From positions 1 to 37,674 of IMG/VR virus record IMGVR_UViG_3300046323_000486: DNA of 37,674 nucleotides. One strand, written 5' to 3'. The stretch is from a virus. Below the pieces are notes generated by a model. It was not told the origin of the DNA, did not search any database, and was given only the letters and a program-made list of their open reading frames with translations. The position numbers were made by a program, and so were the translations under genes. This document shows positions 2,129-37,206 of this stretch, in pieces. Each line of letters starts with the position of its first letter. The first letter of the stretch is position 1.

Positions 2129-2764
2129 TCACCGCGTCACCCAGCGTTCGCGCACCGCGTTTTCAAAGGCGGCATCGTAATTGTGCGCCATGCGGTTTCC
2201 GGTGACACGTTTTGCCAGCCAGTCATCAATCCGGCGCATCAAGACATCATCGCCGCATTCATCCGCACTTAGCCCCGCACGCTTCATCGCGTCTGACAAG
2301 CGTTGAAATCGCTTCACGTCTGCCTGTTGACCGCGTGATCGTTCCCGCACCTCACGGCGCGACAGAACATCTTGCAGCGATGTCAGAACCACATGGTGCA
2401 TCAGGCGGATTTCGCCGTTGCCACGCCCCGCGCATAGGCAGGGTTCCCAATTGCGCAATGGGCCCCGGTCACGCAGATTTCGCAGGGCGATCCACTGCGC
2501 CAATGGCAGACGCAGCAACGCGGCCAATTCCTCATCATCGGACGGCAAGGTGCCAATCGGGCTTTGCGCCGTGGCCAGATCGAACAGGGCGCGGGCCACG
2601 CCCTGCACCTCATAGCTGCATTTCAGGTGGCCCGAAGAGTTTAGCCACCGCGACGGCACCCATTTGACAAAGGCCAGTTCCGGCAATCGCTCTTCGCGGT
2701 CAATCGGGTAATCTGGCAGGGTGACATCTTCAACCAGGCGGGGCACTTTGCGGTCTGACATCAT
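2129..2764 (-). CDS. DUF1376-like replication initiator candidate
   Basis: A 211-residue protein. Residues from about 30 to 130 follow the pattern of the DUF1376/phage replication O-type N-terminal domain: KWVPSRWLNSSGHL, then YEVQGVARALFDL, then GTLPSDDEELAALLRLPLAQW. The C-terminal part is charged and could carry the DNA or helicase contact. It starts with tandem ATG codons at 2764, overlapping the upstream stop, and ends only 9 bases before the iteron array. I infer that it binds that array and recruits host replication proteins. DUF1376 similarity is recognised by eye, and the initiator role is inference. Confidence 0.65.
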   Translation of the reverse strand: MMSDRKVPRLVEDVTLPDYPIDREERLPELAFVKWVPSRWLNSSGHLKCSYEVQGVARALFDLATAQSPIGTLPSDDEELAALLRLPLAQWIALRNLRDRGPLRNWEPCLCAGRGNGEIRLMHHVVLTSLQDVLSRREVRERSRGQQADVKRFQRLSDAMKRAGLSADECGDDVLMRRIDDWLAKRVTGNRMAHNYDAAFENAVRERWVTR

Positions 2765-3324
2765 GACACCACCGCGCGGTGGTTTTGCACCTGAATTTGA
2801 ACACGCCGGCGTATTTTTTGGGCCCGCTGATCGTGCGCATCGCCCTCACCACTGACAGGCAGCGCCAATTCGTGCCGAAATCGCTTGGTGACATAGGCCG
2901 GATCTACCCCCGCCAACGTGCACACACAGGCGAAATCGCGCGATGCGAACCACGACATGGCCTCACGCCGCCGTTGATCAGCACCGTCGCCGATATGGCC
3001 GCCAAAAATGGCGTTCCACTGATCGGTCAGAACGCTGACCCATAACTGGCGACAGGCAGACGGGCACAGATCAGACGCCACAAGGGGCGGCATCGGCGGC
3101 AGGTCTTGCACATCAACGCCGCGCAAAGGTCTGATATAGGTGGGCCAGAACACATCATTGCGCGCCGCCCATGCAGCGATGTTGTCGCGCGAAATGCCTG
3201 TGGCCCGCGATGCTTCGACCAGCAACATGCCCGCGTCAAAACAGCCGCGAATCTTGGCATCACGCTCGGCACGCCATTCGGCCATGGATGGTGATGCAGT
3301 TTGTGGTTCAGTCACGGCCCCCAT
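2761..3324 (-). CDS. Hypothetical HTH protein of early operon
   Basis: A 187-residue protein. The ATG at 3324 overlaps the upstream stop (TGATG) and marks the true start; the frame upstream is only the shadow of the neighbour. Residues about 35-60 (GMLLVEASRATGISRDNIAAW) form a plausible helix-turn-helix. A second helical block contains CRQLWVSVLTDQW and SWFASRDFACVCTLAGVD, a pattern I associate with small conserved alphaproteobacterial phage proteins of unknown role. It is translationally coupled to the replication protein downstream. DNA binding is likely; the target is unknown. Confidence 0.75.
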   Translation of the reverse strand: MGAVTEPQTASPSMAEWRAERDAKIRGCFDAGMLLVEASRATGISRDNIAAWAARNDVFWPTYIRPLRGVDVQDLPPMPPLVASDLCPSACRQLWVSVLTDQWNAIFGGHIGDGADQRRREAMSWFASRDFACVCTLAGVDPAYVTKRFRHELALPVSGEGDAHDQRAQKIRRRVQIQVQNHRAVVS

Positions 3325-4106
3325 CAGCCAACCCTCCGTTGCAATGCCTGCTGGCGCACCGCATAGGCCGCAGCCGAGGCACGGTTGGTTTGGTCGACAA
3401 AGGCAATACCCAACAGGTTGAAATCGGCGCGCACGGTTGCAGGCTTGGCACCTATGATCAATGGCACGGCATGTGGATTTACGCCTGCGCGCACCAGCCG
3501 CAGAATTTCGGCCAACCGCGCCTCGCGCACTTTGGTGCGAGCAATGTTGCCCTTGACGCGCCATGTGTCATCACGCCGAATTGTCAGTTTGAAATCGCGG
3601 CAGATGTTGCGCACTGTTGCGGGCGAAATGCCCGTCAACTGGGCGATGTCCAGCGCCGTCATGGCCGCATGATCCAACGCTGCAATCTGCGCCATTTTCG
3701 CGCGCCGAATGGCCACCAACCCGTGATTGGCCAGCAACCCCAACCGCCCGCGATCATAGACGATCACCGATACCGGCACGGCCAACTGATTGGCGATTTG
3801 AATATCGGTCAAACCCGCCCCAACCAGATCGGGCAATTGCGCGCGGCGTATTTCGGCCAATGGCCCATTGCGCCAGCGTGACCAGGCACTTGCCGTGTCG
3901 CGCTTGCACTGCGCGATGTAATCCGGCTGCACCAGCTTGCGACCATTCCACACGGGCAAGGTGCGTCCACTCGCACCAACAGGCACAATCTGCACCGCGC
4001 GCGGATCAACACCGCAACCATACCGGGCGCTGACATCAGCTGCGATGGCCACCGCGTTTGGAACGGTGTTGATCACAGCGGGATCTATCATCTGTGCCCC
4101 GATCAT
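3324..4106 (-). CDS. Hypothetical protein with three helix-turn-helix motifs
   Basis: A 260-residue protein with at least three separate HTH-like segments: AGLTDIQIANQLAVPVSVI near residue 98, ALDIAQLTGISPATVRNI near 150, and AGVNPHAVPLIIGAKPATV near 208. Each has the small-residue turn and the second helix expected of simple homeodomain-like folds. No catalytic residues are visible, so it is not an obvious transposase or recombinase. The start at 4106 overlaps the stop of the HD-domain gene (ATGA). It may be an early regulator or a multi-site DNA-binding protein; this is inference. Confidence 0.75.
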   Translation of the reverse strand: MIGAQMIDPAVINTVPNAVAIAADVSARYGCGVDPRAVQIVPVGASGRTLPVWNGRKLVQPDYIAQCKRDTASAWSRWRNGPLAEIRRAQLPDLVGAGLTDIQIANQLAVPVSVIVYDRGRLGLLANHGLVAIRRAKMAQIAALDHAAMTALDIAQLTGISPATVRNICRDFKLTIRRDDTWRVKGNIARTKVREARLAEILRLVRAGVNPHAVPLIIGAKPATVRADFNLLGIAFVDQTNRASAAAYAVRQQALQRRVG

Positions 4107-6300: not shown

Positions 6301-6330
6301 GTCATAGGTTTTTAAACCGATGTCTGTCAA
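6301..6330 (-). promoter_or_regulatory. Leftward early promoter with repressor operator
   Basis: On the minus strand a perfect -35 box TTGACA occupies 6330-6325. An 18-base spacer and a -10-like TATGAC (6306-6301) follow. The spacer contains the operator at 6306-6319, two inverted AGGTTT half-sites around TT with one terminal mismatch (AGGTTTTTAAACCG on the plus strand). A protein bound there would block RNA polymerase. The same operator recurs at 8835-8876. The promoter is inferred; the operator repeat is directly visible. Confidence 0.75.
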
Positions 6331-6379
6331 TGTTTTTTTATCCTATTGCCGCGAAGTTTTGCGCAAGGGACAATTGACC

Positions 6380-6703
6380 ATGCCCAGCTTTATCGAACTT
6401 CTCGAAATATATCTTGAAAATCACCCCGAGTGGACCGAGGCGGGCCTCGCCCGCGCGGCTGGGATGCACAACAGCAGCATTCGCCAAATGCTTAAGTACC
6501 GCAGGAACCCTCGCTTTGACACGATGGAAAAGATTTGCGCTGTGCTTGGCTTTAGCCTTGAGAACTTTATGACGCAGGGTCGCGGCCAAGAACTTGCGGA
6601 AATTCATCATCTGATTGCTCTACTAACACCAGAAGAGCAGGCGATGATAAAAACCGCCGTAGCCGCCCTTGTCGCGCAACGCCGTGATCCATCGCCGAAA
6701 TGA
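6380..6703 (+). CDS. CI-like prophage repressor, short form
   Basis: A 107-residue protein. The ATG at 6380 is chosen because AAGGGA lies 9 bases upstream; the frame upstream of it has no ribosome site. Residues 16-66 form a Cro/C1-type helix-turn-helix (EAGLARAAGMHNSSIRQML followed by a basic turn and DTMEKICAVLGFSLENFM). The remaining 40 residues are helical and charged and probably dimerise. There is no S24/LexA-type Ala-Gly cleavage site or serine-lysine protease domain, so RecA-driven self-cleavage is unlikely. It is divergent from the leftward early operon and most likely binds the operators at 6306, 8835 and 8863. Confidence 0.8.
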   Translation: MPSFIELLEIYLENHPEWTEAGLARAAGMHNSSIRQMLKYRRNPRFDTMEKICAVLGFSLENFMTQGRGQELAEIHHLIALLTPEEQAMIKTAVAALVAQRRDPSPK

Positions 6704-7138: not shown

Positions 7139-7627
7139 ATGTCAACTCTTGACGAATGTCGCGAACAGAGGTTGCTGTCTACCATGAGCGGCAACTTGCG
7201 CCGCCGTCAACAGCCAGAACGGGTTTTGATGGCGACGGCGGATGCAATGGCGGTGTTGGTGCAGGATTTGAAAACAATGACATCCGATAATTTCTATCCC
7301 GGATCGCAGTCGCCATTGGAACAGACGGCAGACATCTTTAACCGGTTCATTTCGGGTGATGCGATGGCCCATCCACTGCCCCCGCATGAAATGTCCCCCC
7401 GGGGCGCAGGCGTGTTTCGCCTGCGCACCCAAGACCTGCGCTTTGACGGCTGGTTTCCAATTAAGAATTTCTTTGTCATCGCGGCGATCCATACCAAACA
7501 GCAGTGCAAAGCCAACGGTTTTGATGATGCAATCTACGCCCAGGTTCTGGCCACGCGGCTGGCGATCAATCTGAACGGCGGCACCTATGTGACAGCAGGA
7601 GATTACCGTGACCTCATTCAGCTTTGA
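7139..7627 (+). CDS. Possible RelE/HigB-like toxin
   Basis: A 162-residue protein. The C-terminal half, GVFRLRTQDLRFDGWF, then FFVIAAIHTKQQCKA, then a helix and a final strand, follows the core pattern of RelE/HigB-type mRNA interferases: a beta-strand with LRT/DLR, a second strand, and a conserved Lys. The N-terminal 80 residues are not typical of that family. It overlaps the start of a downstream HTH gene, the toxin-first order of HigBA modules. The start is uncertain: ATG 7139 lies in a promoter-like TATATG, and ATG 7184 is possible. A toxin role is a hypothesis. Confidence 0.6.
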   Translation: MSTLDECREQRLLSTMSGNLRRRQQPERVLMATADAMAVLVQDLKTMTSDNFYPGSQSPLEQTADIFNRFISGDAMAHPLPPHEMSPRGAGVFRLRTQDLRFDGWFPIKNFFVIAAIHTKQQCKANGFDDAIYAQVLATRLAINLNGGTYVTAGDYRDLIQL

Positions 7628-7994
7628 CATCTCGGAAAAAGACCTGGCCGGCGCTCAGTTCATCTCAAAGGCCAGCCGCAGGTTGATTGCTGCATTTGTC
7701 CAGAAAATGCGTACCGAAAAACTTACAAAGCAGCAGATTGCCGATTTGCTGGAGGTGGATAAATCCACTGTTTCCCGTATGTTGCGTGGAAATTCCAATC
7801 TGACATTGCGCACCATTGGCGAACTGGCTTGGGCGATGGATGTTGACCCTGATCTTGCTTTGAAACCCTTTGACGAAAGAATGGTCAACCAACCCATGTC
7901 CGTGGCGATCAGCGTGGTCCACAGTGGCACCGTCCGCCCAACCAACCGCAACGCAGGCACCGTCATCCTATCCAACGCCGGAATCCACCCATGA
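7608..7994 (+). CDS. XRE-family HTH regulator, antitoxin candidate
   Basis: A 128-residue protein with a canonical XRE helix-turn-helix at residues 38-80: LTKQQIADLLEVDKSTVSRM, then a Leu-rich helix and WAMDVDPDLAL. The GTG at 7608 is the start, with GGAGA a few bases upstream, and it overlaps the preceding gene by 20 bases. A tail of about 40 residues follows the HTH, as in antitoxins that wrap their partner. The pair with 7139-7627 resembles HigBA. It could equally be a second phage regulator. Confidence 0.8.
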   Translation: MTSFSFDISEKDLAGAQFISKASRRLIAAFVQKMRTEKLTKQQIADLLEVDKSTVSRMLRGNSNLTLRTIGELAWAMDVDPDLALKPFDERMVNQPMSVAISVVHSGTVRPTNRNAGTVILSNAGIHP

Positions 7995-12294: not shown

Positions 12295-12975
12295 ATGAAT
12301 CCCACCCTTGCCCCTATGCGCGTCTTGATCGGCTGCGAATTATCCGGCGTTGTCAGACGCGCGTTTGCGGCTCTTGGTCATGACGCATGGTCTTGCGACC
12401 TGGCACCAGCAGAGGATAGAGCGAACCAACACCTGATTGGCGACGTGCGCGATTTTCTGCACCTTGACTGGGATTTGCTTGCGGTCTTTCACCCACCATG
12501 CACCCGCCTGTGCAACAGCGGTGTCAGGTGGCTGCACACCCCGCCACCCGGAAAATCGGCCGCACAAATGCAGGCCGATCTTGTTGACGCCGCCGCGCTG
12601 TTTTCGGCGCTGTGGAATGCCCCGATCAAGCGCATCGCTGTGGAAAACCCAGTGATGCACAAACACGCCAAAGCGCTGATTGAGAACTTTGAACCCGCCG
12701 CACAGACGGTGCAGCCATGGTGGTTTGGTGATCCGGCGTTCAAGGCAACGGGCCTCTATCTGCGCGGCCTTGCCCCCTTGCGGGCCACCAACCGCCTAAC
12801 CCCGCCCACCAAGACAACCGACCCCGCCACCCACGCCCAATGGTCCGCAATCCACCGCGCCAGCCCCGGCAAAGACCGCGCCCGCCTGCGCAGCCGCACC
12901 TTTCAGGGCATTGCCAACGCGATGGCCATGCAATGGGGCGGCGATACGCGCATCAACAAAGGATCAGCAGCATGA
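12295..12975 (+). CDS. DNA cytosine methyltransferase-like protein
   Basis: A 226-residue protein resembling the compact cytosine-C5 methyltransferase-like proteins of phages. An AdoMet-binding start (MRVLIGCELSGVVRRAF), an acidic strand end (DAWSCDL), the catalytic Pro-Pro-Cys at 67-69 (FHPPCTRL) and the motif VENPVMH are all present in order. It is shorter than restriction-type enzymes and has no clear target-recognition domain. It may modify phage DNA against host restriction, or be a degenerate form. AAAGGT precedes the ATG. Confidence 0.75.
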   Translation: MNPTLAPMRVLIGCELSGVVRRAFAALGHDAWSCDLAPAEDRANQHLIGDVRDFLHLDWDLLAVFHPPCTRLCNSGVRWLHTPPPGKSAAQMQADLVDAAALFSALWNAPIKRIAVENPVMHKHAKALIENFEPAAQTVQPWWFGDPAFKATGLYLRGLAPLRATNRLTPPTKTTDPATHAQWSAIHRASPGKDRARLRSRTFQGIANAMAMQWGGDTRINKGSAA

Positions 12976-13584: not shown

Positions 13585-14132
13585 CCCCCGAACAACTCGC
13601 CGCACTGGTGGCAGACCGTGAAGCCGGAACGCCGGGGCCGTGGACAGATGATGCTGCAAAAATTGAAGATGCGGAGGATTATTCTGTTGACCGGGAGGAC
13701 GACAACGGAAGTGGTCTATGCTGGTCGGCTGTCGGTCATTATGGAATGACTATCGCTCTCGTAGTTGTTCCGTCATCTTTTGGGATGGATGCCGATCAGG
13801 CAGCCAACGCCCGCCGCATCGCCCGCGTCCCTGAGATGGAAACGGCGATCATCGAACAAGCCGCAGAGATTGCGCGGCTGACAGCGGAACGTGATGACGC
13901 ATTGGCGCGCACCGAAAAGGGCTGGGCGCGGGTGAAATTGCTGGATGATGCACTATACGTAGTCATGGGCTACGCCACGCCAATATTCTGCATTGACGCC
14001 ATAACGTGCGCCGATTGGTTTGTTGCCTGCGCGGATGTTGCGTGTGGGCTTGATGATCCACACGGGAAAATTGAGAAATGCCTAGCAGAGGCCCGCACCA
14101 CACACTGGGGGAAGCACAATGACCGCGCCTGA
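13581..14132 (+). CDS. Ea22-like protein
   Basis: A 183-residue protein. The order is LAALVADREAGTPGPW, then DADQAANARRIARVPEMETA, then a coiled coil (IEQAAEIARLTAERDDAL). This matches Ea22-like (Ead) proteins carried in the early or accessory regions of lambdoid and alphaproteobacterial phages. Their function is unknown. The start overlaps the upstream stop by ATGA, and its own end overlaps the Lar-like gene by 14 bases. Confidence 0.7.
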   Translation: MTPEQLAALVADREAGTPGPWTDDAAKIEDAEDYSVDREDDNGSGLCWSAVGHYGMTIALVVVPSSFGMDADQAANARRIARVPEMETAIIEQAAEIARLTAERDDALARTEKGWARVKLLDDALYVVMGYATPIFCIDAITCADWFVACADVACGLDDPHGKIEKCLAEARTTHWGKHNDRA

Positions 14133-14433
14133 ACTCAAGCCATGCCCGTTTTGTGGGGGCAAACCATATCTCGCAAATGTCGAAATGGTGGGATGTTCCT
14201 ATGTTGTTTGTACGGATTGCCGTGCGCAGGGTGATGACGCAACTAAAGAGATGGCCGTAGCCGTATGGAACACCCGCCCCAACTCTCCAGAGGTGTTGGC
14301 GCTGTTGGAGGCGTGTCGCCCGTTTGCACACGCAACAATCAGAAACGGCGTTCCTGTCGCGGGGGCAATCGGTCGCACCGATATCATAACCCTGCGCGCC
14401 GCCCTAGCCATGTTCACGAAAGGCGGTGAATGA
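14119..14433 (+). CDS. Lar-like restriction alleviation protein
   Basis: A 104-residue protein. Residues 1-50 hold the Lar zinc ribbon: Cys9 and Cys12 (KPCPFCGGKPYL), Cys31 and Cys34 (CTDCRAQG), and the terminal AVAVWNTRP motif. Lar of the Rac prophage alters host type I restriction-modification to protect unmodified DNA. A further 50-residue C-terminal module (EVLALLEACRPFAHA, ending LAMFTKGGE) follows. That module recurs in the small protein at 14633-14836. Anti-restriction function is inferred from family. Confidence 0.8.
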   Translation: MTAPELKPCPFCGGKPYLANVEMVGCSYVVCTDCRAQGDDATKEMAVAVWNTRPNSPEVLALLEACRPFAHATIRNGVPVAGAIGRTDIITLRAALAMFTKGGE

Positions 14434-14961: not shown

Positions 14962-15164
14962 CCCGCGCTGCATTCCGCCAATCCGACCTAACCCGCGCCG
15001 TCAAAGGTGCAATCGCCGGGGGGCTTCCCGTTGTCAGATCAGAAATCACCAGCGACGGGAGCATCAGGCTATGGCATACAGTCCAAGAATCCGAACCCGC
15101 AAACGCCCGTGAGGCGTGGAAGGCCAGCCGTGCAAGTCGATCTCAAGGGAATCCACAAGGTTAA
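14958..15164 (+). CDS. Small protein before integrase, excisionase candidate
   Basis: A 68-residue protein starting at the ATG at 14958 and overlapping the integrase start by 35 bases. The sequence AAFRQSDLTRAVKGAIAGG, then PVVRSEITSDGSIRLW, is a pattern common directly upstream of alphaproteobacterial phage integrases. A classic MerR/AlpA-type winged helix is not obvious. Position and size fit a recombination directionality factor, but that is inference. Confidence 0.65.
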   Translation: MTRAAFRQSDLTRAVKGAIAGGLPVVRSEITSDGSIRLWHTVQESEPANAREAWKASRASRSQGNPQG

Positions 15165-16176
15165 ACGCCGCCTCTCCGGGGGCGGTCACTCCCTGCACTT
15201 CTACGCATGGCGGGGCGGGCCAAAGATTGAAGCTGAACCCGGAACCCCGCAATTCATCGCAGAGTTTCACGCGCTCACAGCCACCCGCGATAAGCCGATC
15301 AAGGGCAAGGCCACGCTGCAAGGGCTGATTGACAGTTACCGATCGACAACGGATTTCACCGCACTGGCCGAAACCACACGCAAGGAATACGCCCGATACA
15401 TTCGCAAGATTGAGGCCGAGTTTGGCGACTTGCCAATTGCCGCAATCAACGACCCGCTTATTCGTGGCGATTTTCTGGAATGGCGGGACGGGCTGGCCGT
15501 CACAGGGACGCGGGCCGCTGATTACGCGTTTTCGGTCCTGTCGAAGGTCATGGCATGGGCCTATGACCGCCGCAAGATCGTGGCCAACCCGTGCGAACGA
15601 CCCGGCAGGCTGCACAGCGCAGGCAGGGCCGCGAATGTCTGGCGTGACGACACGTTGGGCGCGCTATTCGCCAAGGCGTCCACAGCCGTCGCGTTGCCGT
15701 GTCAGATCGCATTATGGACCGGGCAACGACAGGGCGATATCTTGCGCCTGACATGGGCGGCATACGATGGGGAGTTCATCCGCTTGCGGCAATCGAAAAC
15801 AGGGCGTCACCTGACCATCAAGATTGCAGCCGAATTGCGGGGGGTATTGGACGCGGCCAAGCTAACGCGCAAGACGGTCACGATTTGCGCAACACAGCGC
15901 GCAACACCGTGGACCAGCGACGGTTTTAAAACCAGCTTTGGCAAGACATGCGCCGCAGCCGGGGTTACGGGCCTGACGTTTCACGACTTTCGCGGCACAG
16001 CAGTTTCGCGCCTTGCCGCAGCCGGTTGCTCAGTTCCTGAGATTGCGACCATCACCGGCCATAATCTGAAAGACGTGGAAAGCATCCTCGACAAGCACTA
16101 TTTCAGCCGCGATTTGGCGCTCGGGGAATCGGCCATTGCAAAGCTGGAAAAGCACAGAATGGCAACGGACCTGTAA
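15130..16176 (+). CDS. int: Tyrosine recombinase integrase
   Basis: A 348-residue integrase that catalyses site-specific recombination between attP and a host tRNA-Thr gene. The GTG at 15130 is the start, with GGAAGG 7 bases upstream. The N-terminal arm-binding region is followed by a SAM-like core-binding domain (about 65-150) and the catalytic domain. All active-site residues are visible: Arg200 (TGQRQGD), Lys223 (QSKTGR), His285 and Arg288 (HDFRGT), His311 (TGHN) and the nucleophile Tyr324 (KHYFSR). It lies directly beside attP, as expected, in the same orientation as the repressor gene. Confidence 0.95.
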   Translation: MQVDLKGIHKVKRRLSGGGHSLHFYAWRGGPKIEAEPGTPQFIAEFHALTATRDKPIKGKATLQGLIDSYRSTTDFTALAETTRKEYARYIRKIEAEFGDLPIAAINDPLIRGDFLEWRDGLAVTGTRAADYAFSVLSKVMAWAYDRRKIVANPCERPGRLHSAGRAANVWRDDTLGALFAKASTAVALPCQIALWTGQRQGDILRLTWAAYDGEFIRLRQSKTGRHLTIKIAAELRGVLDAAKLTRKTVTICATQRATPWTSDGFKTSFGKTCAAAGVTGLTFHDFRGTAVSRLAAAGCSVPEIATITGHNLKDVESILDKHYFSRDLALGESAIAKLEKHRMATDL

Positions 16177-16375
16177 ACGGTTTACCGAAAGCCTGTAAAC
16201 GGTTAAACCGCCAACCTGCTAAGCCATTGATTTAAATGGTGCCCCCATCAGGATTTGAACCCGAGACCCCCTGATTACAAATCAGAACCTTTGCGCTGAA
16301 ATCATTGGCAAATATGTGTAAACTAGCCTCATTTGGTGGTGTTTGGAATCAATGGGTTACGTGGCGACTGTAAAC
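16172..16375. other. attP: attP with tRNA-derived core and arm-type sites
   Basis: Four direct copies of TGTAAAC lie at 16172-16178, 16194-16200, 16317-16323 and 16369-16375, two on each side of a core at 16237-16285. The first two sit in a longer repeat, CCTGTAAACGGTT, 22 bases apart. This layout (arm sites around a tRNA-derived core next to int) is that of a phage attachment site. The first arm site overlaps the integrase stop codon. CGGTTAAACCG at 16200-16210 is a further palindrome. Confidence 0.8.
16237..16285 (-). other. att core: 3' half of tRNA-Thr(TGT)
   Basis: On the minus strand these 49 bases read as the anticodon loop TTTGTAA (anticodon TGT), the 3' anticodon stem, a GGGTC variable loop, the T arm with GGTTCAAAT, the acceptor strand TGGGGGC and ACCA. 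The 5' half (expected to begin GCCCCCA) is absent on the upstream side, so this is not a complete tRNA. Integration here would rebuild the host gene's 3' end. The core therefore names the target, a host tRNA-Thr(TGT). Confidence 0.8.
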
Positions 16376-16396
16376 CGAATCCGCGCGGGTTGTGGA

Positions 16397-17074
16397 CTAG
16401 TAATATCTGGCATTTCCGGCGCGCTGCGCAGATGACGCGGGCACACCTGTCGCCAGATTTTCCCAATAATAGCCAAAACCATAGCTGGTCTTAATTGGGT
16501 CAACACCAAGATCGCGTTCCATCTTCCTTCGTGTCCGCTGGACGAAACTGTCAATTACAGTGTCTTTTGCCGGATTCCACCCACGATAGAACTCGTTAAT
16601 GAAGAAGGCGCGCGATTTCACCACACCCGGTCGGGCTGACAAGATAGCACATATATCAAATTCCCTTGCCGTAAGGCGGCATTGCTTCGAACCCCGCATC
16701 ACCAAACGCAGTTCGTGATCACACCAAACCTCTGTATCTGGTCGGGATGTCACCGCTACTTGTGAGCCCCCAGCATCCCAATAATATCCAACGCGATAGT
16801 CCGTCTTGATTGGGTCAAATCCGAAGGCAGGTATGATCTGCATACGTGCGCGTTTAACATAACTATCAACAGTTCTGTCGAAAATATCGAACCCTTCGCC
16901 GTGCATCACGTCAAGAATTTGCTCTCTTGTTCTTATGACACCAGGTGTTTGCATCAGATAGACGCAAAGCCGTAATGGTCCACGCTTCAATCGGCACTCT
17001 TTGTCACCGTGGACAAGAACCCGCTTTTCCGCATCGAACAAAACGCCCTGGCGCTGCACTTCGTCAGAGCGCAT
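16397..17074 (-). CDS. Tandem OmpR/PhoB-type winged-helix regulator
   Basis: A 225-residue protein made of two Trans_reg_C-like winged-helix domains with no receiver domain. Domain 1 (about 10-99) has CRLKRGPLRLCVYLMQTPG, the recognition helix DRTVDSYVKRAR, and a wing ending DPIKTDYRVGYYW. Domain 2 (about 120-204) repeats this as CRLTAREFDICAILSARPG, DTVIDSFVQRTRRKM and DPIKTSYGFGYYW. The start at 17074 overlaps the spanin gene by 11 bases with AGGG upstream. It is the last gene of the leftward late block, beside attP. It may regulate late genes or integration, or act on the host. Confidence 0.85.
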   Translation of the reverse strand: MRSDEVQRQGVLFDAEKRVLVHGDKECRLKRGPLRLCVYLMQTPGVIRTREQILDVMHGEGFDIFDRTVDSYVKRARMQIIPAFGFDPIKTDYRVGYYWDAGGSQVAVTSRPDTEVWCDHELRLVMRGSKQCRLTAREFDICAILSARPGVVKSRAFFINEFYRGWNPAKDTVIDSFVQRTRRKMERDLGVDPIKTSYGFGYYWENLATGVPASSAQRAGNARYY

Positions 17075-17321
17075 CCGCCACACCCTGATACGCCCCCACC
17101 GCAGCCGCGCGGCTGGCCTCGCATTCAATCAGCGCCGTGCCGAGGGTGCCAGCCACCACCAACCAGTCACCAGACCCTAGCGCCGCCTCTGGGGCCAAAC
17201 ATGGCGCTGTGATGGCGCTATCAAGGGGCGGCACGGTTACCCGCGAAAAGGGCTTGAAGTCGCCGCAAGCTGTCAGGGTCAACCCGGCGATTGCCAGCAT
17301 TGCTGTCATTGATTGCCGCAT
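17064..17321 (-). CDS. Rz1-like outer-membrane spanin lipoprotein
   Basis: An 85-residue protein with a lipoprotein signal peptide: MRQSMTAMLAIAGLTLTACG, with the lipobox LTAC putting the lipidated Cys at residue 19. It overlaps the 3' end of the gene 17221-17541 in another frame, the typical nested Rz/Rz1 arrangement. The mature part is short and contains prolines near the start, as in o-spanins. It would act with its partner to fuse inner and outer membranes at the end of lysis. Family assignment rests on architecture. Confidence 0.75.
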   Translation of the reverse strand: MRQSMTAMLAIAGLTLTACGDFKPFSRVTVPPLDSAITAPCLAPEAALGSGDWLVVAGTLGTALIECEASRAAAVGAYQGVADAL

Positions 17322-17541
17322 TTTCGAAATCCTCTAGGGCTGTGGCATTGGCCGCGCGCATGGCTTGCAGCGCAGCCCCGGCGCGCGCAGCACGGGCGCT
17401 GGCCTCTATGATGTCTTGTTGCATCTGTGCGGTTTGCACTGCCAATTCGGCGCGCACAGACGCGGCCCCCTTGGTGTAACCGTGCAGCCATAGCCCACCG
17501 ATAAAGGCCGCTATGGCAAGGGCGCGGTAGAGCAAGATCAT
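17221..17541 (-). CDS. Rz-like inner-membrane spanin
   Basis: A 106-residue protein with one N-terminal membrane anchor (LLYRALAIAAFIGGLWLHGY) followed by a periplasmic coiled coil rich in Ala, Gln and Glu (VQTAQMQQDIIEASARAA). This is the i-spanin layout. It follows the endolysin gene by 10 bases and overlaps the lipoprotein gene by 101 bases. Together they complete a holin-endolysin-Rz-Rz1 cassette. Confidence 0.8.
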   Translation of the reverse strand: MILLYRALAIAAFIGGLWLHGYTKGAASVRAELAVQTAQMQQDIIEASARAARAGAALQAMRAANATALEDFENAAINDSNAGNRRVDPDSLRRLQALFAGNRAAP

Positions 17542-17551
17542 TGCATCACTC

Positions 17552-18163
17552 TCACGGCCAATTTTCTACGCGGGCCCGGTGTTGCGCATCGGTCAGCCGC
17601 AAATCCGGCCGCATGAAATCCTCTGCCCGGATGATCCAACCACCCTTGCCACCGTCTTTGCGGCGCGCGTATTTGCGGCTGGCGGGGCGCGAATCCGCCA
17701 AAGAATAGTAATAGTTGCGCCGCGCGATGGCATATAGATCAGCCATATCCGCGCCTTTCTCCTTGTAGGCCAGTTCGGCGGCATAGATGGTTTGGCGCCC
17801 GATCTGGCCATCAACCCCGCACGGAAACCCCAGCCCGATCAAGAACCGCTGTAACAGCTTGATCGCATTGGCCCCGGCGTTCACGTGCATATCGAACACC
17901 ACGCCTTGCAGCGGCACCGGCAACTTGTCGATGCCAGGTTTATAGAAATAGTGCTGCATGTAGATTTCTGCCGCCCGCGCCACAGGCAGGATTTTTACAT
18001 CGGTCACATCAATGCGGCCATCGCCGTTGATATCCACCCCAAGCGCGCGCATCGTGCCGATGGTGACGCCGTGGTTTGTGGCCCCGCCCGGATCATCTGG
18101 ATCGTTCACAAAACCACCCTCACGGGCCAGAATTTCCGCTGTCAGTTGTGCGACAGTTTTCAT
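17552..18163 (-). CDS. GH108 endolysin (N-acetylmuramidase)
   Basis: A 203-residue endolysin that cleaves peptidoglycan glycan strands. The GH108 signature is at the N-terminus: REGGFVNDPDDPGGATNHGVT with catalytic Glu15. The C-terminal peptidoglycan-binding half includes CGVDGQIGRQTI. Residues 44-55 (DINGDGRIDVTD) match a calcium-binding EF-hand/dockerin-like loop inserted in the catalytic part. No signal peptide is seen, so export depends on the holin upstream. The start overlaps the holin stop. Confidence 0.9.
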   Translation of the reverse strand: MKTVAQLTAEILAREGGFVNDPDDPGGATNHGVTIGTMRALGVDINGDGRIDVTDVKILPVARAAEIYMQHYFYKPGIDKLPVPLQGVVFDMHVNAGANAIKLLQRFLIGLGFPCGVDGQIGRQTIYAAELAYKEKGADMADLYAIARRNYYYSLADSRPASRKYARRKDGGKGGWIIRAEDFMRPDLRLTDAQHRARVENWP

Positions 18164-29521: not shown

Positions 29522-30073
29522 CTATGCCATCCACAGCTTGCGGAATGGCTGGATCAGCGCATCGACAGCGGGCGGAAATACCCCCTGCCCTTCGCGGTTG
29601 GCGTACCAATGCGCGGCCAACATGCGCACCGCGACCTTTAAGGCGGGCGGCACGACCGCGTGACCTGCGATATATCGAATGCGCGCGGCGTTCACAAAAC
29701 TGCCCGTGGCGGGCCAATCGGCAACTGGAACAACCCATCCTTCGCCGTCAGTGGTGTCGACCTGATATTCAATAGGATTCATCACCTGCAACACACCAGC
29801 GGCGTCCAGATAAGACACCGAAACGATGGACATCACCGGGCCAAGCGGCAACTTTAACGCGCCACAGGGGAAAACATCATAGGTCAATTCCCACGTTTGC
29901 GCCGCCAGACACAGACCCAGAACCCCGTTATACCCGTCCAAATGTGACACCGCTGCCGCAACCAATTGCGTCAGCAAAACATCTTCGTCCGCATGCAGCA
30001 CGCGGGCAGTTGCTTTGATTTCGTCCACGCTGACCACAGGGTCAATGGGCGGCGTGATCAATGTTAGGCTCAT
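29522..30073 (-). CDS. Head-tail connector, gp6-like
   Basis: A 183-residue protein of the Phage_connect_1/gp6-like family: VVSVDEIKATARVLHADEDV, helix LLTQLVAAAVSHLDGYNG, then PLGPVMSIVSVSYLD and the helix KVAVRMLAAHWYANREG. It would form the ring beneath the portal. The ATG overlaps the stop of the repeat-protein gene. Confidence 0.85.
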   Translation of the reverse strand: MSLTLITPPIDPVVSVDEIKATARVLHADEDVLLTQLVAAAVSHLDGYNGVLGLCLAAQTWELTYDVFPCGALKLPLGPVMSIVSVSYLDAAGVLQVMNPIEYQVDTTDGEGWVVPVADWPATGSFVNAARIRYIAGHAVVPPALKVAVRMLAAHWYANREGQGVFPPAVDALIQPFRKLWMA

Positions 30074-31065
30074 CTGTGCGCCCCCCCGGCCATTCTATTT
30101 CGTCCCACACCAGCTGCTTGCACGGCACGGCGCTGATCGCCAACTGGCAAAACCCGCTGCGATACCAACGGGCTCATGCGGTCCATACCGTGTGGTGTCT
30201 CACGTTCATTTTCTGCTGCACTGCCAAGATATTCGGCGCGCACGGCACTCGGGCCAATCAGCTGCCCATTGACGGTGACCAAAGTCAGAATGGGCGCACC
30301 CGTAACCAGATTGGCGGCAATCACCGCATGAACCTGACCAACCGTCACAGCGCCTACAACAGGCGCACCAGCGGCCAGTCCAACCGGAAGCACACCGACA
30401 GCACCACCCAGCGCAGTTTGACCCACAACAGGCGCACCAGCGGCCATATTGGCCACACTCACCGCATGGACCTGACCAACCGTCGCAGCACCAACAACAG
30501 GCGCAGCTGCCAGCAATCCGACAGGAACAACACCAACAGCGCCACCCAGCGTGGTTTGACCCACAACAGGTGCCGCCGCCGCCAGATTGGCAGGGGCCAG
30601 CGCGTGAACCTGACCGAAGGTTGCAGCACCAACAACAGGCGCAGCTGCCAGCAATCCGACAGGAACAACACCGACCGCGCCACCCAGCGCGGGTTGACCC
30701 ACAACAGGTGCCGCCGCCGCCAGATTGGCATGGGCCAGCGCATGAACCTGACCAACCGTCGCAGCACCAACAACAGGCGCACCTGCCAGCAATCCGACAG
30801 GAACAACACCGACCGCGCCACCCAGCGTTGTTTGACCCACAACAGGTGCCGCCGCCGCCAGACTGGCAGGGGCCAGCGCGTGAACCTGACCAACCGTTGC
30901 ACCACCCACAACAGGCGCACCAGCGATTAATCCGACAGGGATTGCCGGGCCTGCCACCGCAGCGTCAAACGAGGTATCTTCCAAAACCGCAACTGCGGCT
31001 GTCGTTCCTAAACCAAACCCCTCAAACGGCGAACGATTGAAGGGATCGAACGACAGGTTAGCCAT
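30070..31065 (-). CDS. Repeat-rich structural protein (46-residue repeats)
   Basis: A 331-residue protein. After a 44-residue leader, residues 45-264 consist of nearly five tandem copies of a 46-residue unit, each with two half-repeats of the kind GAPVVGxATVGQVHALAxAN and AAAAPVVGQTTLGGAVGVVPV. The last 65 residues are charged and unrelated. The regular Ala/Gly/Val/Pro spacing suggests a beta-solenoid or fibrous stalk. It lies between structural genes and the gp6-like connector, so a capsid- or neck-attached fibre is plausible. No family name is certain. Confidence 0.75.
   Translation of the reverse strand: MANLSFDPFNRSPFEGFGLGTTAAVAVLEDTSFDAAVAGPAIPVGLIAGAPVVGGATVGQVHALAPASLAAAAPVVGQTTLGGAVGVVPVGLLAGAPVVGAATVGQVHALAHANLAAAAPVVGQPALGGAVGVVPVGLLAAAPVVGAATFGQVHALAPANLAAAAPVVGQTTLGGAVGVVPVGLLAAAPVVGAATVGQVHAVSVANMAAGAPVVGQTALGGAVGVLPVGLAAGAPVVGAVTVGQVHAVIAANLVTGAPILTLVTVNGQLIGPSAVRAEYLGSAAENERETPHGMDRMSPLVSQRVLPVGDQRRAVQAAGVGRNRMAGGAHR
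30274..30933 (-). repeat. Tandem 138-bp coding repeats
   Basis: Four complete units and one partial unit of 138 bp encode the 46-residue repeats of the protein at 30070-31065. Copies differ mainly at third positions and a few residues (GLLAGAPVVG versus GLLAAAPVVG). The identity is high enough for recombination between units, so the copy number could vary. The opposite strand shows a false open frame here because of the regular composition. Confidence 0.85.
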
Positions 31066-34251: not shown

Positions 34252-35461
34252 TTGTGGGGCCCTTTTCCTTCGGTAAAGCCGCAGAGTTCATTGATCCGGC
34301 AGACAACTCGGCCGCAGCACCGCCCATTGGATTAAGCCCAATTTCTGCGCGCACCTCGTCTTGCGTCATCCATGCCGGCGTTCCGCCCGCGCCAAGTGCC
34401 TTGGCGTAGTATTCCGCTTGGTCCTTGAAATCACCGCGCAGCAAATTGCGTTCGTCAAGATCAACGCGAAGCCCCTCTGCATGGCCCAGAATGTCGCGCG
34501 CCGCCGCCTCTTCAAATCGCGCAATCCATGGCCCCAAGGTGTGGATCACATGATTGCGAAACATCTGTTCAGCACTGGCAAACGTCGCGGCCTTATCCGC
34601 CTGCATCAACATGATAGGCTGAACCCGGAACGCGCGCGCAACCTCTTCGATCTGCATGCGCCGGGTTTCGATGTACTGCGCATCGACGCTCGTCATAGTC
34701 ATGGATTGGAACTTGGCATCACCGTCCAAAATGGCGATACCACCCTCACCCCCAAAACCAAATTTCGATTGCCATGTCTCCTTAAGTTTTTCTTTTGTCT
34801 CAGTCCGCAATGGCTGAACAAATGATAGCACCCCGGATGGTTTTCCCCCGTTGCCTGCCAACTGTGCTTGCTGCGCTTCCAGCGCCCGCGACAGGCCAAT
34901 TGCTTGCCGCGCCTGCTTGACTGCGGGAAGCGCGGAAAAACCGTCAAGTGATGGCCCGCGCAAATAGAAAACCTCGTTTAGCCCAAAATATCCGTGCGTT
35001 TTGTCGCTGTAATCAATGCGAATACGCAGCGACCAGTCGGCCAGTTGTTCAATTCCCCATGCCCCCGGCGGTACGGGTAGCAACTCGCGCACTTCACCGC
35101 GAACTGTGCTTTTGATCGCGACAGCGCCCGCGCCCAAAGCCGCTGAGAAAATCATCCCCTCGCGGAATTCATAGCTTGTCTGCCAATGATTTGGCTTGAT
35201 GGCCAAAAGTTTGTGCGCCCAGTGGTCACGCCGAATGCGCAAGGTTTGCAGATCACTTCCATCTGCAAACTGATCTTCAACGACACGCACAGGCATTTGC
35301 GCAATACCTTCGGCAATCACCCGCGCCGCACAAAAAACCGCCGTCACGTCGACCGAATTTTGCACGGTGACCGAACTGCCCGCCGCAGAAGTCCAACCAA
35401 CCCAAGCCGCCGCCAGCTGGTTAATCGTCTGCGTTTGCGACTTGCGCAAAAATCCAAACAT
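34238..35461 (-). CDS. HK97-family portal protein
   Basis: A 407-residue protein. It shows DVTAVFCAARVIAEGIAQMP, WQTSYEFREGMIFSAALGAG, LNEVFYLRGPSLDGFSALPA, RRMQIEEVARAFRVQPIML and TLGPWIARFEEAAARDIL, which is the HK97-type portal signature. Twelve copies would form the DNA entry ring. The ATG at 35461 overlaps the terminase stop. Length is typical. Confidence 0.95.
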   Translation of the reverse strand: MFGFLRKSQTQTINQLAAAWVGWTSAAGSSVTVQNSVDVTAVFCAARVIAEGIAQMPVRVVEDQFADGSDLQTLRIRRDHWAHKLLAIKPNHWQTSYEFREGMIFSAALGAGAVAIKSTVRGEVRELLPVPPGAWGIEQLADWSLRIRIDYSDKTHGYFGLNEVFYLRGPSLDGFSALPAVKQARQAIGLSRALEAQQAQLAGNGGKPSGVLSFVQPLRTETKEKLKETWQSKFGFGGEGGIAILDGDAKFQSMTMTSVDAQYIETRRMQIEEVARAFRVQPIMLMQADKAATFASAEQMFRNHVIHTLGPWIARFEEAAARDILGHAEGLRVDLDERNLLRGDFKDQAEYYAKALGAGGTPAWMTQDEVRAEIGLNPMGGAAAELSAGSMNSAALPKEKGPTNETE

Positions 35462-37206
35462 CAGAGCACCAGCAATTCGTTATCGTCCAAATAGGAACCC
35501 GTTATCGCAGCCTCTGGATCGCGCAGCATCAGCATCGCGGCGTTCAGCATGGCAATCACCGGATCAATCTTCGTCACGCCAGCCTCCTTTTTTTCAATCA
35601 ATGTGTTGCTGCCCCGGATGACCGTTTTCACGTTGCCCACGGCCCACGCGACAAGCGGTTGATCGCAGTGGATCAGTTTGCGGTCTTTCAACATGCGTGG
35701 CAGCGTTTGAATGGCGGGGCCCAGCTTGTATCCTTGCCCGATGCCGGTGATCGTCTCACCCAATCCAGCCAGTCCAAGATGATCCAGCAGGCTGGCGATG
35801 CCAAAGGGGTCAAGGCCGATGCCGTCTTTTTCTGGCAACAGCCCTGCCTCTGACAACCGCTTGCAGATTGCGGTGATTTCCACCTCGGCCGCATTCAAAT
35901 CGCCGATCACCAGATCGCCGTCTTTGACAAATCCACGCAAGGTTTCCGAAAGCTGCTTGCGCCGATCAAACACAATCGGGTCAGCCCAGGCGCGCGCCCA
36001 AAACCGCCAAACCCGTGTTTCACGGTGACGCCCAATAACACCCATCGACATCAAGTCATCCAGACCGCCACCATCACCGCCGAATGTGCAAACATCCGAT
36101 GTGGCAATGATTTCATCCAAGGTCAAACCGGGCTGTGCGGCCCCTTTCCAGAAATCCGCACCCGACCAACGGTCATCATGCATGCCCATGCCCACCTGAA
36201 TGTTCAGATGCTGGCTGGCCCATTCGATGACATTGCTTTGGCCTTTGTCGCGGGCCTGCTGAAATTCATCAATCATCCGCCGCAAATCCAGCGACAGACC
36301 CAGATTTGGCATCACCTGATACCAGATACTTGGGTCTTTCCACTTCTGGTCTGGCGATGCCTGAACCGCCTCCGAAAACTCATACAAAACTGGCAACATC
36401 CGCACCGATTGCGTCACCCGTCCATCACGCACCGCGCGGGCATAGTCCAATTCGGTCTTGAACACGCCGCTGGGGCGGTTTTCCGATTGGGTGGTGATGA
36501 TGATCAACAGGCTTTCGCTGTTGGTCACCATGCCGCCCCGAATTTGGCCGATCACCCGGCTGGCATAATGCGATTCCGCCATGACGTGCAGTTCGTCCAG
36601 AATGGCAAAGGCAGGAATGCCGCCCGTGACCACTTTGGGGTCAAAGGACTTGACCCGCAGTTTGGCATTGCGCGGCCTGCCGGTGGCCTCATCAATCGCC
36701 ATGTCAATGATCGTCTTACGGTGTTCAATCACCCGAAACCGCTTGCGCAGATAGTCATCCAGTTCAATCATTTGCGCCATTTGCGCAAAACAGGTGTCCG
36801 CAACCTCTTGGGTTGGACCGATCACCACCCCATTCGCATTGGGTGTGCGGTTCAGCTGCAACCAGACAAGGCCGATGGCGCCTGCGTTTGTGGTCTTGGC
36901 GTTCTTTTTTGGCACCAGGTTGAACAACTCACCCACGTGCCGGATCAGTTTCTTGCCGCCCACCCGCTTTGGATCATCGACCAGCGACACACAGCCAAAG
37001 GCCGCGCGCACAATATCGCGCACCCAGTCGCCCGCAGCCTCACCCATCGTGGGCTGGCCCGGCACATCCGGGATCCGCAACTTGTTGAACAGCGCCACCG
37101 CGACATCGGCATAGACATCATTGACGGGAATGTCAGGAATGGGCGTTTGCCCGGCCGCAAGTTTCGCCTCCCAATCAGGACAAGCGAACGACAGACCATC
37201 CAGCAT
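35461..37206 (-). CDS. terL: Terminase large subunit
   Basis: A 581-residue packaging motor and nuclease. The ATPase domain has a Walker A-like LVPKKNAKTT (97-106), Walker B FAILDEL (200-206) with its catalytic Glu, and the coupling motif IITTQSE (237-242). The nuclease domain has GGDGGGLDD (376-384), GDLNAAEVE and GLDPFG, supplying acidic metal ligands. It belongs to the HK97-like Terminase_1 group. The start overlaps the small subunit stop (TGATG). Confidence 0.95.
   Translation of the reverse strand: MLDGLSFACPDWEAKLAAGQTPIPDIPVNDVYADVAVALFNKLRIPDVPGQPTMGEAAGDWVRDIVRAAFGCVSLVDDPKRVGGKKLIRHVGELFNLVPKKNAKTTNAGAIGLVWLQLNRTPNANGVVIGPTQEVADTCFAQMAQMIELDDYLRKRFRVIEHRKTIIDMAIDEATGRPRNAKLRVKSFDPKVVTGGIPAFAILDELHVMAESHYASRVIGQIRGGMVTNSESLLIIITTQSENRPSGVFKTELDYARAVRDGRVTQSVRMLPVLYEFSEAVQASPDQKWKDPSIWYQVMPNLGLSLDLRRMIDEFQQARDKGQSNVIEWASQHLNIQVGMGMHDDRWSGADFWKGAAQPGLTLDEIIATSDVCTFGGDGGGLDDLMSMGVIGRHRETRVWRFWARAWADPIVFDRRKQLSETLRGFVKDGDLVIGDLNAAEVEITAICKRLSEAGLLPEKDGIGLDPFGIASLLDHLGLAGLGETITGIGQGYKLGPAIQTLPRMLKDRKLIHCDQPLVAWAVGNVKTVIRGSNTLIEKKEAGVTKIDPVIAMLNAAMLMLRDPEAAITGSYLDDNELLVL

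Follow-up and report, generated by a model that had tools for sequence, protein, structure and literature searches.

What does an OmpR/PhoB-type DNA-binding module do when a virus encodes it twice in one chain and without a receiver? This question is raised by a gene in the viral record IMGVR_UViG_3300046323_000486, all 37,674 nt of which were analyzed (the window). Response regulators of the OmpR/PhoB class normally depend on phosphorylation for favored DNA pairing. A natural protein that carries two effector domains in series is a ready test of whether pairing alone suffices for binding and activation, and it also tests how phages adopt host-type regulators minus their signals. The gene and its domains are:

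16397..17074, (-) strand: coding sequence for a receiver-less protein of 225 aa with tandem winged helices (start codon ATG at 17074, stop codon at 16397)
16775..17044, (-) strand: N-terminal OmpR/PhoB-type winged helix, residues about 11-100 (Pfam, AF2, Foldseek)
16457..16735, (-) strand: C-terminal OmpR/PhoB-type winged helix, residues about 114-206 (Pfam, phmmer)

The first-pass annotation described two OmpR-type winged helices in one chain and no receiver, and both points hold. Cut out alone, each half separately passes the curated Pfam cut-off for Trans_reg_C (PF00486; 26.2 bits), with 46.0 bits for the N half (E 5.6e-12) and 47.4 bits for the C half (E 2e-12). When the whole 225-aa protein is scanned, Trans_reg_C is the sole Pfam family, matched in two stretches, and neither a receiver nor any further Pfam family is found. 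The phospho-acceptor Asp receiver of OmpR/PhoB response regulators is not what the N half encodes; it is a winged helix. Each half carries a related signature, DPIKTDYRVGYYW at residues 87-99 of the N half (16778-16816) and DPIKTSYGFGYYW at residues 192-204 of the C half (16463-16501), with DPIKTxYxxGYYW as the consensus common to both.

It had been considered that only one half might fold as a winged helix, and this did not prove to be the case. The AF2 model of the N half, built on a 66-row alignment in which its own C half and 64 domains of viral contigs made up the 65 relatives, has a pLDDT of 83, with a core above 90, and its strands and helices follow the order of the OmpR class. In Foldseek this model is matched to the PhoB effector domain, free and DNA-bound (1gxq/1gxp; E 2e-7), with other effector domains ranking after. 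The C half resembles solved BaeR and PhoB-type domains at the level of sequence (BaeR 4b09, E 3e-8, 79 residues aligned; phmmer). For the full-length protein, the single-sequence AlphaFold model has a pLDDT of just 36, and all relatives aligned to it with MAFFT fell on the C half. In PhoB numbering, D196, R201, R203, and T217 are kept in both halves, and the main positions facing DNA are retained in both recognition helices. The recognition helices read DTVIDSFVQR and DRTVDSYVKR, and because they differ at positions 193, 194, 198, and 200, the two half-sites are probably non-identical. The wing residue R219 of PhoB is Y in both halves, so the DNA contacts may differ as well.

The two halves align over 87 residues without gaps, at 39% identity and a score of 162. 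Shuffled controls (n = 500) score 24.8 ± 4.0 with a maximum of 48, so the likeness is not due to chance. The half-to-half score also exceeds the best score against any other tested domain (115 for the C half, 96 for the N half), and in a tree of ~95 OmpR-type domains the halves are sisters (support 0.946). They stay sisters when a single-domain phage protein described below (L223) is added to the tree (0.863). As each other's closest relatives among the ~95 domains, the halves point to internal duplication of one winged helix, not fusion of two different regulators, and the duplication origin proposed earlier is supported by this comparison of sequences.

Free-standing double Trans_reg_C proteins had been called unusual, and the searches bear this out. 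With tblastn, no second receiver-less double was found in 50,697 phage records or, among the best 60 of 680 matching records, in 72,556 plasmid records, and the signature and motif patterns applied to viral contigs yield no second distinct one. The same gene is present in one further viral contig only, identical to the window across all compared DNA; one distinct sequence of the double is known. The other OmpR-type domains gathered from viral contigs are all single, in a set picked mainly by the receiver motif and biased towards receivers. When 84,980 genomes of bacteria and archaea were scanned by motif, an approach that needs short near-exact peptides and that distant doubles could escape, neither the protein nor the alignment of its halves returned a relative, and literature searches turned up no receiver-less protein with two Trans_reg_C domains. 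The hit H128 and two weak phage hits, H120 and H129, were rejected as relatives, being ordinary response regulators with receivers.

Two phage proteins answer the concern that every homolog might carry a receiver, as both are without one. The first, found with a relaxed signature pattern in another phage (L223, 5190-5507), is a 105-aa free-standing single winged helix with the GYYW signature, and it adjoins a head-protein (virion structural) gene, downstream of the portal gene, in the head operon of that phage. It groups with both halves in the tree (support 0.946), although its likeness is partly due to selection through the signature pattern. The second, gp60 of the Rhodobacter phage RcMcLean (L219, 2168-2770), has 200 aa; its DUF6456 domain comes first, and behind it lies a CtrA-like winged helix that lacks a receiver and has the recognition helix ELKIVDVFICKMRKKL.

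How might a tandem protein of this kind act? OmpR/PhoB response regulators recognize direct repeats spaced by ~11 bp, and they dimerize on this DNA more readily once the receiver is phosphorylated. When PhoB is bound to DNA, successive effector domains pack end to start, and PhoB stripped of its receiver is constitutively active. On direct repeats, members of the family are arranged head to tail as tandem dimers, and PhoP of M. tuberculosis uses a 7-bp motif with a strict 4-bp spacer (PMC4832192). We propose that a receiver-less OmpR/PhoB-type winged helix was duplicated in tandem to give a stand-alone DNA-binding protein, whose two effector domains, joined in the same N-to-C order as a head-to-tail dimer, would amount to a pre-formed tandem dimer. 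Effector domains in series, joined by a linker of ~13-15 residues, fit such a dimer given the PhoB-DNA geometry, and the protein likely engages DNA in tandem. The single chain would then occupy a complete direct repeat of ~22 bp with no signal needed, the missing receiver implying action independent of phosphorylation. Expression would occur late in infection and possibly also from the prophage end. In the most speculative step, the protein would be a cargo (moron-like) regulator that acts mainly on host promoters and not on the phage lysogeny switch. Constitutive binding, 22-bp sites, and late expression are all properties that we infer. On balance, we favor this combined reading of a phosphorylation-independent, single-chain tandem dimer on a ~22-bp direct repeat, acquired as a cargo regulator. 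Speaking against it, the main non-coding gaps offer no candidate binding site for the protein, and the one strong repeat close to the gene is that of the integrase.

The phage is temperate and siphophage-like, and its host is probably an alphaproteobacterium; the terminase resembles, at 40-45%, those of phages of Paracoccus, Rhodobacter, and other alphaproteobacteria. The best matches of the terminase (35461-37206), at 49%, are to phages described from the cyanobacteria Microcystis and Pseudanabaena, whose true hosts may need checking. Elsewhere in the window, a Lar-like restriction-alleviation protein (14119-14433; phrog_599, E 2e-14) is encoded near a DNA methyltransferase (12295-12975). A 138-bp tandem repeat of 4.5 copies with 87% matches (30325-30939) overlaps a (-) strand ORF (30070-31065) that has no PHROG match, and a short array of CAACTCTGTC (2038-2092; 10 bp, four perfect copies) lies immediately to the left of ORFs at 2129-3564. 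Upstream of the tandem gene on its strand are the lysis genes:

17552..18163, (-) strand: endolysin (phrog_315, E 1e-30)
17221..17541, (-) strand: i-spanin-like ORF, overlapping the o-spanin, with an N-terminal hydrophobic segment and no Pfam match
17064..17321, (-) strand: o-spanin (Rz1-like lipoprotein) ORF, from its sequence; weak Rz1-like Pfam match LysC (E 0.05, below cut-off)

The tandem gene is the final one on the late strand, at its lysis end behind the endolysin and spanins, and lies ~90-110 bp from the attP core. Its earlier placement at the end of the late operon and beside attP is thus borne out in position, whereas the "operon" is deduced from gene order. In an integrated prophage, the gene would be last, opposite the integrase end and reading outwards. 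Several features speak for cargo: the gene is atypical in composition (G+C 50.4%, GC3 0.50) relative to the phage (G+C 57.8%; GC3 0.61-0.69 in nine other phage genes), it is adjacent to attP, and no OmpR-type winged helix is found in endolysin-syntenic lysis loci, many of them on partial contigs with few recognized spanin neighbors. A consensus scan detects neither a promoter-like site ahead of the gene nor a terminator-like site in the region, so that a typical autonomous moron unit remains putative. The presence of two other, separate repressor-type HTH genes (6320-6703 and 7608-7994) makes it unlikely that the tandem protein is the lysogeny repressor, and for an anti-defense role there is no PADLOC match. 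The regulator would most likely act late or in lysogeny, and effects on late, integration, or envelope genes are plausible. Should it indeed target host genes from the prophage, it would count as a regulator of lysogenic conversion.

Among the alternatives, the one that survives best is a regulator of the phage proper, co-expressed with the lysis genes and controlling its own late promoter or the timing of lysis. The ATG of the tandem gene sits within the o-spanin-like ORF, with an 11-base overlap with its stop, which would suit this reading, as would the single-domain protein in the head-gene operon of L223, which hints at a lineage adapted to phages. CtrA-like proteins without a receiver are also present in Rhodobacter and Roseobacter phages, and by analogy those of roseophages may exert a similar late or lysis control. 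However, the last position on the late strand is odd for a late activator, the G+C of the gene differs from that of the rest of the phage, and the main non-coding gaps of the phage hold no candidate direct-repeat site (7-bp direct repeats spaced by 10-12 bp are absent). Moreover, the tandem gene is missing from the compared stretches of related phages whose endolysins are similar. We regard this alternative as rather unlikely and place the host-directed cargo regulator ahead of a phage-internal late regulator.

A decaying, functionless remnant of a host response-regulator gene could also have a low G+C, no close homolog in phage, plasmid, or genome searches, and a position at the prophage end, all of which are seen here. 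Yet the 225-codon frame is intact, hallmark residues are kept and scores are equal in both halves, the gene is identical in the only other contig, and a receiver-less single relative is present in another phage (L223), which together make decay improbable.

The closeness of attP had suggested a link to integration. The features on this side of the gene are:

15007..16176, (+) strand: tyrosine integrase (phrog_1, E 2.5e-34)
16170-16182 and 16192-16204, (+) strand: two exact copies of CCTGTAAACGGTT, 22 bp apart, between the integrase and the core
16240..16285 (borders approximate), (-) strand: attP core, corresponding to the 3' part of a tRNA (cmscan, sequence)
16317 and 16369 (within 16317..16377), (+) strand: two more TGTAAAC copies, on the other side of the core

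The attP core has the anticodon loop TGT (Thr) and ends in CCA, and its tRNA match of 22 bits is under the gathering score and good in the 3' part only (cmscan). Four TGTAAAC-type repeats thus surround a tRNA-Thr-type core, and two 11-bp modules in one protein might in principle match the copies spaced 22 bp apart. Behind related integrases (about 60% identical) beside tRNA-Met in two other loci (L085/L086), a CCTGTAAACGGT repeat recurs at 12 bp, and a third locus (L087) has a diverged version of the attP-type repeat. No OmpR-type winged helix is found in the compared DNA of L085/L086. Because the repeats recur with related integrases that lack the tandem gene nearby, they are best read as integrase arm-type sites, which the TGTAAAC-type repeats on both sides of the core probably are. 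The attP repeats were dropped as binding sites of the tandem protein on the same grounds, and the proposed link to integration is weakened. A recombination directionality or accessory factor, with tandem helices bound to the direct repeats flanking the tRNA core, therefore seems most improbable: attP is close and winged-helix excisionases exist in other elements (e.g., RdfS), but the CCTGTAAACGGT repeats track the integrase, also at another tRNA, and no OmpR-type domain is known to be an excisionase.

The favored reading, a pre-formed tandem dimer acquired as cargo, can be set beside several known systems. With the OmpR/PhoB regulators (PhoB, BaeR, PhoP, and KdpE), the tandem protein shares the PF00486 effector domain, the fold, and the recognition-helix pattern; those regulators combine a single receiver with a single effector under the control of phosphorylation, whereas the tandem protein has two effectors and no receiver. 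Each half has PHROG 731 as its best PHROG, but the halves match no more than positions 130-226, at the C-terminal end of its 227. This group is probably a full response regulator family, and it was rejected as a family of doubles given that the match is confined to its C-terminal part.

A plasmid ORF of Streptomyces coeruleorubidus (L095, 3380-4567) likewise has two tandem Trans_reg_C domains that are sisters (0.93), but it keeps an N-terminal receiver and represents a separate, independent duplication. In the distributed gene table of this plasmid (NZ_CP137525.1), just the second winged helix is given as a CDS.

The roseophage CtrA proteins and RcMcLean gp60 are also phage-encoded, receiver-less OmpR-type winged helices, although they are single and have a CtrA-like recognition helix. 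In roseophage RDJL-Phi-1, the receiver-less CtrA is a neighbor of GafA (PMC6363796). The tandem protein reaches only 34 of 350 bits against the CtrA model and is without the CtrA-like helix ELKIVDVFICK; there is no case for CtrA mimicry, as the window contains no CtrA boxes (TTAA-N7-TTAA). The L223 protein is likewise receiver-less, with the signature VDSYIKR...VDAIRTRYGFGYYWD, and differs in having one domain, in the type of phage, and in gene position. It is quite possible, if somewhat short of probable, that this phage lineage holds an OmpR-type dimer hard-wired in the DNA-bound state, which in bacteria is attained through phosphorylation alone, and that a small receiver-less GYYW family exists, single in L223 and double here. 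Receiver-less OmpR-type domains are already known from phages; the new element is their doubled form.
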